A DNA stretch of 64,000 bases. It comes from Bacteroidota bacterium. Lineage in GTDB: Bacteria; Bacteroidota; Bacteroidia; 2-12-FULL-35-15. Position 1 is the stretch's first letter; each line of letters starts with the position of its first letter. The notes below the pieces were generated by a model. The model had not been told where the DNA came from, searched no databases, and worked only from the letters and a program-made list of their open reading frames with translations. The position numbers and the translations under genes were made by a program. Shown one piece after another: positions 11,643-12,053 of the stretch. The stretch is taken from contig JAFLBF010000002.1 of assembly GCA_017303895.1 (NCBI GenBank), forward strand, positions 62,001 to 126,000. The letters are read 5' to 3'.

Positions 11643-11700
11643 AAAAAACCTCGCGATTTGCGAGGTTTTGTGGGAGCTACTGGGTTCGAACCAGTGACCC
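11643..11700. repeat. 58-bp direct repeat, copy 1 (tRNA 3' end plus terminator)
   Basis: Identical to 11980-12037. It contains the minus-strand terminator hairpin CCTCGC/GCGAGG (A-run on the plus strand, so a U-run on the minus transcript) and the T-arm and acceptor 3' strand of tRNA-Val. The two copies bracket the GIY-YIG gene. Confidence 0.95.
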
Positions 11701-11732
11701 TCCCGACTGTATGTCGGGATGCTCTGAACCAG
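11671..11732 (-). tRNA. tRNA-Val-derived fragment with altered anticodon arm (3' two-thirds)
   Basis: Reading the minus strand: D-loop end GGTTCAGAGCA, then a hairpin TCCCGA-CATACAG-TCGGGA where tRNA-Val has its anticodon arm, then variable loop, T-arm and acceptor 3' strand identical to tRNA-Val. The acceptor 5' strand and D-stem are missing, replaced by the GIY-YIG reading frame. The arm is 2 nt longer than normal and lacks U33. It cannot be a working tRNA; it encodes the last residues of the GIY-YIG protein. Confidence 0.8.
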
Positions 11733-11970
11733 AGACTAATTTTTCAATCATTTTTCTGGATTTCCAATTTTTGACAGATCTTTCCCTTTCGAATGCATTT
11801 GTTTTACTATCAAATTTCTCAGAATAAACAATCTTCCAATCATTTGCTTTTCCGGTATATCCCGAGTGATTAGAGTTGTGTTTTCTGAGACGTTCTTCTA
11901 ATTTGTCTCCAGTATGTCCAACGTAAAATTTGTTGATTGATTCAGAGAATAATATGTAAAAGTGGTACAT
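11677..11970 (-). CDS. Single-domain GIY-YIG endonuclease-like protein
   Basis: 97-aa protein of the small GIY-YIG (UvrC N-terminal-like, YhbQ-type) family. From ATG 11970: [17 protein letters not shown] gives the two GIY-YIG strands, [19 protein letters not shown] the conserved Arg/His segment, and [18 protein letters not shown] the region with the metal-binding Glu. A longer frame to 12063 only translates the att/tRNA sequence, so I reject that start. The last 17 residues ([17 protein letters not shown]) and the stop codon are encoded by the tRNA-Val-derived fragment. It lies between two 58-bp direct repeats, which suggests it entered or spreads with tRNA sequence. Nuclease activity is inferred from the family only. 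Confidence 0.85.
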
Positions 11971-11979
11971 CGTAAAATG

Positions 11980-12037
11980 AAAAAACCTCGCGATTTGCGA
12001 GGTTTTGTGGGAGCTACTGGGTTCGAACCAGTGACCC
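11980..12037. repeat. 58-bp direct repeat, copy 2 (tRNA 3' end plus terminator)
   Basis: Second copy of 11643-11700; here the tRNA-Val sequence continues unaltered into the anticodon arm (to 12053), forming attL of the integrative element. The terminator hairpin lies at 11986-12002. Confidence 0.95.
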
Positions 12038-12053
12038 CCTGCTTGTAAGGCAG
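12007..12053 (-). other. attL: 3' half of the original tRNA-Val gene
   Basis: 47 bp matching 61009-61055 with one mismatch (G at 12013, A at 61015); the 40 bp from 12014 are identical. Covers the tRNA-Val sequence from the anticodon loop to the acceptor 3' end. The flanking terminator and acceptor variant are chromosomal type, so this is the chromosomal half left behind after integration. Confidence 0.93.

Follow-up and report, generated by a model that had tools for sequence, protein, structure and literature searches.

The locus raises the question of why a small GIY-YIG nuclease gene should be bracketed by two copies of the end of a tRNA gene, and whether such an arrangement arose by insertion or by duplication. 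The analysed DNA, a stretch of 64,000 nucleotides called here the window, carries a perfect 58-bp direct repeat (11643-11700 and 11980-12037, copies 100% identical) in which the T arm and acceptor of tRNA-Val are joined to an intrinsic terminator. The tRNA part of this repeat occurred three times in the window and not once in 100 shuffles.

Composition of the window locus

The nuclease gene (97 codons) lies on the minus strand, with its start codon ATG at 11970 and its stop at 11677, and its product scored 57.6 bits against Pfam PF01541. Its final 17 codons and the stop are read from a broken tRNA-Val copy (11670-11732), which matches nt 16-76 of tRNA-Val, begins in the D loop and carries, in place of the anticodon arm, a palindrome of 19 bp (11701-11719). 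The preliminary description, made from the letters of the DNA, had claimed a tRNA-Val/terminator repeat around the gene, a C-terminus encoded by tRNA-Val and a changed anticodon arm; all of this held up, with both repeat copies exact where it had placed them and the change being the palindrome. The features in its interval, 11643-12053, are real, but they form the downstream half of the structure only, and the 5' half of tRNA-Val at 61146-61173 had been missed.

The sole tRNA found in the window by ARAGORN was tRNA-Val(TAC), at 61009-61084 on the minus strand. A third tRNA piece is the 5' tRNA-Val half just mentioned, which is followed by a decayed copy of the right-hand palindrome. The fragment at 12007-12053 is the 3' end of tRNA-Val(TAC), 49 kb from the intact copy. 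Since this 3' end is repeated and a tyrosine integrase gene begins at 12210, a separate island of about 49 kb has entered the 3' end of the tRNA. The duplicated tRNA end of the island is 12007-12053 plus 61009-61055, and both the 58-bp repeat and the nuclease gene lie outside it. The island (12054-61008) displaced the tRNA 3' end, so the nuclease gene originally lay directly downstream of the intact tRNA. The intact tRNA had been taken for the left-over part of the target, on the other side of the unit; its position at 61 kb is instead owed to the unrelated island, and it belongs inside the insertion.

When the island is disregarded, the minus strand of the window reads promoter, 5' half, palindrome, spacer, intact tRNA-Val, terminator, nuclease gene, palindrome, 3' half and terminator (Table 1), with about 450 bp between the two palindromes. 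The fullest layout has the same order, with a native promoter at one end and a native terminator at the other, and other Bacteroidota loci, including one in Parapedobacter (L016), have the same parts in the same order with different sequences. The reading we prefer, with a probability of roughly 0.68, is that of a homing-like module that splits a tRNA gene and brings a functional copy to replace it.

Table 1. Parts of the structure in the window, in the order in which they are read on the minus strand
Feature	Position	Strand	Evidence
Native tRNA-Val promoter region, with TATATTTG, upstream of outer 5' half	61174..61233	-	51/57 identical to G316, 48/58 to G302 and G311
Outer 5' half, nt 1-28 of the host's original tRNA-Val gene	61146..61173	-	100% match
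Left palindrome, decayed, TCCCGACTGAAGTCTGGGG, replacing anticodon arm	61127..61145	-	Sequence; intact equivalents upstream of tRNA in L008, L016, L055, L056
Inward-facing remnant (GGGTCA) and spacer preceding replacement tRNA, without promoter motif	61085..61126	-	
Intact tRNA-Val(TAC), read as the module's replacement copy	61009..61084	-	ARAGORN; Rfam RF00005, 69.5 bits; 3' end now island-derived
Integrative island, unrelated, inserted in replacement tRNA	12054..61008	.	Integrase domains; tRNA 3' ends at both edges; cargo
Displaced 3' end of replacement tRNA, nt 30-76, left by island	12007..12053	-	100% match to tRNA-Val
Terminator after replacement tRNA (first terminator copy of 58-bp repeat)	11980..12006	-	
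GIY-YIG nuclease gene, 97 aa	11677..11970	-	ORF; PF01541, 57.6 bits; AlphaFold core model
Inward-facing D-loop-side remnant of broken tRNA copy	11720..11732	-	Match from tRNA-Val nt 16
Right palindrome, TCCCGACATACAGTCGGGA, replacing anticodon arm	11701..11719	.	
Outer 3' half (T arm and acceptor) of the host's original tRNA-Val gene	11670..11700	-	
Terminator after outer 3' half (second terminator copy of 58-bp repeat)	11643..11669	-	

Empty and filled tRNA loci

To compare loci with and without the module, both flanks of the tRNA-Ala(GGC) locus of genome G170 were joined and searched in 120 further genomes of its genus. An uninterrupted locus, with one tRNA between the flanks, was found in G391, G454 and G448, and a filled one in G425, G423, G358, G434, G405, G449 and others. 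In many relatives the upstream flank leads into a 5' piece of the tRNA, 25-27 nt long, after which come a palindrome and a complete tRNA. Where the module is complete, these are followed by the nuclease gene, another palindrome and the 3' half; several loci then have the native terminator and flank on the outside. Nuclease-bearing loci have a terminator of the type AAATACCCAAACAG...TTTGGGTATTTT after the intact tRNA, and empty loci are without it. In one locus grouped with the full forms (L253), neither a nuclease nor a terminator of this type was detected. The outer terminator was of the native type in L242 and L248 and of the module type in L258. Partial forms were also seen, with the 5' side only in G442 and G025 and the 3' side only in G170.

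A similar picture was obtained for tRNA-Val in the genus of the window. In G309 the outer 5' flank and the outer terminator are identical to those of the element-free G299 at 52/54 and 37/43 positions, whereas the inner flank and inner terminator match it poorly. In the window itself, the region preceding the outer 5' half shares 51/57 positions with the promoter region of the element-free G316, and no alignment was obtained for the region preceding the intact tRNA. The tRNA-Ala series and the pair G309 and G299 thus provide presence and absence at one site, with uninterrupted alleles, in comparisons between species rather than between strains. The conserved neighbour gene at 10664-11611 was also tried as an anchor for empty sites, and no tRNA was found beside it in the relatives.

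At most of the compared loci the inner tRNA and the outer 3' half are followed by clearly different terminators. Those of the window are identical (11643-11669 and 11980-12006), which local duplication would also produce. The one direct case of an inner tRNA that differs from a matched outer pair is the tRNA-Val locus of G309 (L055, 1308-1815), where the acceptor is GGGAGTT/AACTCCC in the inner tRNA and GGGAGCT/AGCTCCC in both outer halves; elsewhere the inner and outer acceptor stems are usually identical. The halves also decay in one direction: their outward parts match the tRNA and their inward parts are decayed, on the 5' side in 23 of 26 cases (p 2e-5) and on the 3' side in 42 of 54 informative ones (p 1.5e-5). 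This is expected if the outward parts are those of a freshly split host gene, although repeated recombination among copies could contribute to the pattern.

Together, the element-free orthologous loci and the unlike terminators indicate insertion, and simple tandem duplication, which the preliminary description had named as the explanation that would overturn it, is not sufficient. Its proposal that the 58-bp repeat is a target duplication made upon insertion does not apply in that simple form either, because the inner and outer terminators differ at most loci. At the level of sequence, the comparisons showed the outer halves to be the host's own tRNA gene, with the native promoter still before the 5' half and the native terminator still after the 3' half, and placed the intact tRNA and the terminator following it inside the insertion. 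We consider it very likely that the insertion carries its own tRNA.

Recurrence at tRNA genes across Bacteroidota

A profile built from 11 homologues of the nuclease was run on 296 genomes sampled across the phylum and on 59 relatives, and it matched in 170 and 41 of them, respectively. We examined 141 non-redundant loci, of which the 110 with a profile score of at least 60 and at least 400 bp of upstream sequence were testable. An intact tRNA on the same strand ended at most 400 bp upstream of the nuclease at 89 of these 110 loci (median distance 49 bp), and 99 of them had a tRNA on one side or the other; at control points more than 900 bp from the gene in the same loci, a tRNA was found in 5 cases out of 1106. 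The loci use 16 tRNA types, most commonly Asn, Val, Asp, Met and Ala. The preliminary description had tied the unit to tRNA genes, and to many of them, a claim that would have failed if most homologues lay elsewhere; the survey confirmed the association. Its suggestion that the element uses tRNA sequence as its own coding end was also supported, as this is the case at 40 of the 80 loci with a 3' half detected by BLAST. A 5' half was recognisable at only 29 of 102 loci, many loci having the 3' side only, and the intact tRNA is retained in every complete layout.

Several loci had other arrangements. A long-branch clade of GIY-YIG homologues (L003, L072, L076, L077 and L078) has no adjoining tRNA, and in a small set (L004, L005, L073 and L074) the gene lies 5-7 bp upstream of a tRNA and not downstream. 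In a Chlorobi-type locus (L041, 1900-2900) the palindrome CCCGACACGTCGGG is repeated between nuclease genes at intervals of about 68 bp, and no intact tRNA was found adjoining. The genome of the window contains four tandem 90-bp 5' halves of tRNA-Arg(TCT) before an intact tRNA-Arg (L137, 1480-1912; region G000:C2:45833-46122), each of which has the palindrome TCCCGACCTAAAGTCGGGA plus a further one in its D loop; the nuclease gene is absent there. Tandem 3' halves of tRNA-Val with palindromes and no nuclease gene (L113, L109 and L128) resemble decayed or non-autonomous arrays.

The core of the nuclease is a single domain of about 79 residues (AlphaFold pLDDT 89.6), and the catalytic-domain residues Y5, G18, R27, H31 and E63 are invariant in the 11 homologues. 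By sequence and by fold, the nearest solved proteins in the PDB are UPF0213 and Slx1 (1zg2, 1ywl, 7cq2 and 6seh), the latter a nuclease of branched DNA; the fold matches were to GIY-YIG nucleases, with I-TevI more distant. No separate DNA-binding region was found beside the nuclease domain, and tails, where present, are derived from tRNA. Among ten nucleases of the tRNA-Ala locus, dN/dS was about 0.01-0.09 in unsaturated pairs, indicating that the protein is selectively maintained. The window protein had no match in 50,697 phage records, and a phage or plasmid origin was rejected, as neither collection gave a match and IMG/VR contributed a single contig edge. That edge (L259, 1-400), which has the module's tRNA-Val type, probably stems from host DNA beside a prophage that occupies this tRNA.

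The tree of 133 nuclease domains was built from few columns and leaves many forks open, so no trust should be placed in individual branches. The tRNA type changes 29 times on it, compared with a mean of 69 after shuffling and a minimum of 51 when the shuffling was kept within host families; host family, scored on those rows too, changes 45 times. As judged from these sequences, the tree was shown to follow the tRNA target better than the host family, lineages keeping one tRNA type across families. The nucleases at tRNA-Arg and tRNA-Val in the genus of the window are close relatives, so the target can switch.

The tRNA within the module may be the only one of its kind in the cell. In the complete or near-complete genomes G063, G065, G188 and G236, and also in G069 and G266, the tRNA-Asn adjoining the nuclease is the sole full-length tRNA-Asn match, as is the tRNA-Val(TAC) of the window in its genome (G000). 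The Bacteroidota promoter motif TAnnTTTG was present upstream of the outer 5' half at 14 of 29 loci and in the spacer before the inner tRNA at 2. Transcription of the inner tRNA is therefore probably driven by the host promoter. The motif preceded the nuclease gene at 5 of 102 loci, and we infer that the nuclease is probably expressed at a low level by read-through. The inner tRNA has an ordinary anticodon arm, with alleles shared with element-free tRNAs, and it is in the target that the arm is replaced by a palindrome. We also considered whether the replacement is recoded. For tRNA-Val, C27-G43 is common in the element-bearing copies of the genus and T-A in the element-free ones, but other element-bearing genomes have T-A; for tRNA-Ala, both arm alleles occur in empty and in filled loci, and recoding was unsupported. 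The RNA formed by the 5' half together with the tRNA was checked for a special structure, and it showed no excess stability (z -1.07).

Palindromes were strongly enriched at the nuclease ends, the TCCCG..CGGGA form being present at 45 of 120 ends and in 8 of 240 control windows. It is not a universal mark, as other loci have TCCGCC..GGCGGA or similar; in tRNA-Met elements this form comes right behind the letters CAT of the anticodon, and elements at Asp, Gly and Leu tRNAs have their palindromes in the T arm or D loop. The 3.6-Mb genome has 14 sites of the searched form (control 2), at least 5 of them in tRNA halves. A high-copy dispersed repeat was rejected, since few of the genome's sites lie outside tRNA halves and several of those are terminator-like. 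A group I intron in the anticodon loop was likewise set aside, as Rfam at the gathering threshold gave only tRNA in the window and in L016, L055 and L258.

Possible means of spread and related systems

Nuclease-driven homing is probably the means by which the module spreads. The nuclease would break an uninterrupted copy of the tRNA gene, or cut at palindromes, and recombination through the tRNA halves would copy the module in as in homing. The replacement tRNA would be co-transcribed from the host promoter, so that the disruption of an essential single-copy tRNA gene would be tolerated. The direct repeats of the halves would permit tandem amplification of either side and the loss of one side. 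The closest relative of the module is phage SegB, a homing endonuclease of the GIY-YIG type whose cuts fall within tRNA genes and which causes segments containing tRNA to be amplified in tandem (PMC13096335). By analogy, the module plausibly works like SegB, and we count this enzyme in favour of the homing-like model. The nesting in a split tRNA gene, together with the recurrence at many tRNA genes, points to an undescribed small mobile element. A more tentative proposal, which we rate at somewhat less than even odds, is that of a new class of mobile element, a natural form of homing and rescue, in which a structure-specific, Slx1-like GIY-YIG nuclease rather than a sequence-specific homing enzyme would recognise palindromes, and which would target single-copy essential tRNA genes and carry a full replacement gene. 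A structure-specific enzyme that may act on extruded palindromes is an attractive idea.

The same analogy can be turned against homing, for SegB-like breaks might instead drive local tandem duplication of a segment of tRNA plus nuclease, the halves being decayed members of an array. SegB-dependent amplification of a tRNA segment has been shown in phage T6 (PMC13096335), the window has its identical terminators and its genome the four tRNA-Arg 5' halves in tandem, and two or more nuclease copies, up to seven, stand in a row at 36 of the 141 loci. Yet at most compared loci the inner and outer terminators are unlike, with the native promoter and terminator outside the halves and a different terminator inside; moreover, only inward parts decay and nuclease lineages retain their tRNA type across host families, and we regard local duplication as unlikely. 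Still less probable is a nuclease that serves the host, such as a repair enzyme of the UPF0213 or Slx1 type kept beside tRNA genes, with the tRNA fragments as passive debris. The strong purifying selection and the nearest solved relatives would agree with a host function, but the presence of the gene is patchy, related species having 3'-only, 5'-only, full and empty forms of the same locus, the tRNA type varies, tandem arrays occur and the flanking halves recur in the same order. As to the neighbouring tyrosine integrase (12210-13415), its gene lies about 150 bp from the tRNA fragment, which might suggest that the 58-bp repeat is its attachment site and the nuclease gene island cargo; this can hardly be credited, because the island boundaries leave both outside and because the same module occurs in other species without an integrase nearby, which already contradicts it.

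If the preferred reading of a homing-like module with a replacement tRNA is true, members or homologues of a very small and apparently undescribed element are present at tRNA genes in more than half of the Bacteroidota genomes sampled. The element would be a selfish nuclease of natural origin that makes good the essential gene it disrupts by bringing a functional copy, as engineered gene drives do. It could also account in part for odd GIY-YIG proteins with translated-tRNA C-termini, as well as for the tandem tRNA fragments in these genomes and the repeats at which assemblies end at such loci. The allelic series at tRNA-Ala makes homing directly testable within one bacterial genus. In a literature search, with subscription journals and preprints outside it, no published description of the split-tRNA/GIY-YIG arrangement was found.

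SegB and the other free-standing GIY-YIG homing endonucleases of T-even phages share with the module a GIY-YIG gene among tRNA genes, and the phage enzymes are often near tRNAs without isotype preference (PMC13096335; PMC2988022). The module, in contrast, is chromosomal, in Bacteroidota, and has a nuclease domain only; it is nested in a split tRNA gene, brings a replacement tRNA and is bounded by palindromes, and its nuclease lineages do favour one tRNA type. Synthetic homing-and-rescue gene drives likewise interrupt an essential gene and carry a working copy, but they are engineered, with a recoded uncuttable copy, and the module shows no recoding. UPF0213 proteins and Slx1 resemble the module nuclease in being its best sequence and fold matches in the PDB; they are not known to occur within tRNA-associated repeats, and Slx1 requires a partner protein. 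REP palindromes with their RAYT transposases also combine short GC-rich palindromes with a small nuclease gene. Such a system was rejected here, as the module has a GIY-YIG nuclease and not a Y1 transposase, with palindromes within tRNA halves and only 14 of them in the genome.

Integrative elements and prophages at tRNA 3' ends also target a tRNA gene, keep it functional with an element-borne tRNA part and leave the displaced 3' end behind. The module differs from these in that both target halves are displaced and a whole tRNA is supplied, and it was not assigned to site-specific elements of this kind because only the nuclease gene, and no tyrosine or serine recombinase, lies between the tRNA and the 3' half. 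The window does hold a true tRNA-3'-end element, the island, next to the module. Its cargo comprises two RND efflux systems, a sulfate permease/carbonic anhydrase fusion and a P-type ATPase, and it also encodes several proteins with type IX secretion tails, one of them with a peptidyl-arginine deiminase domain (PAD_porph).
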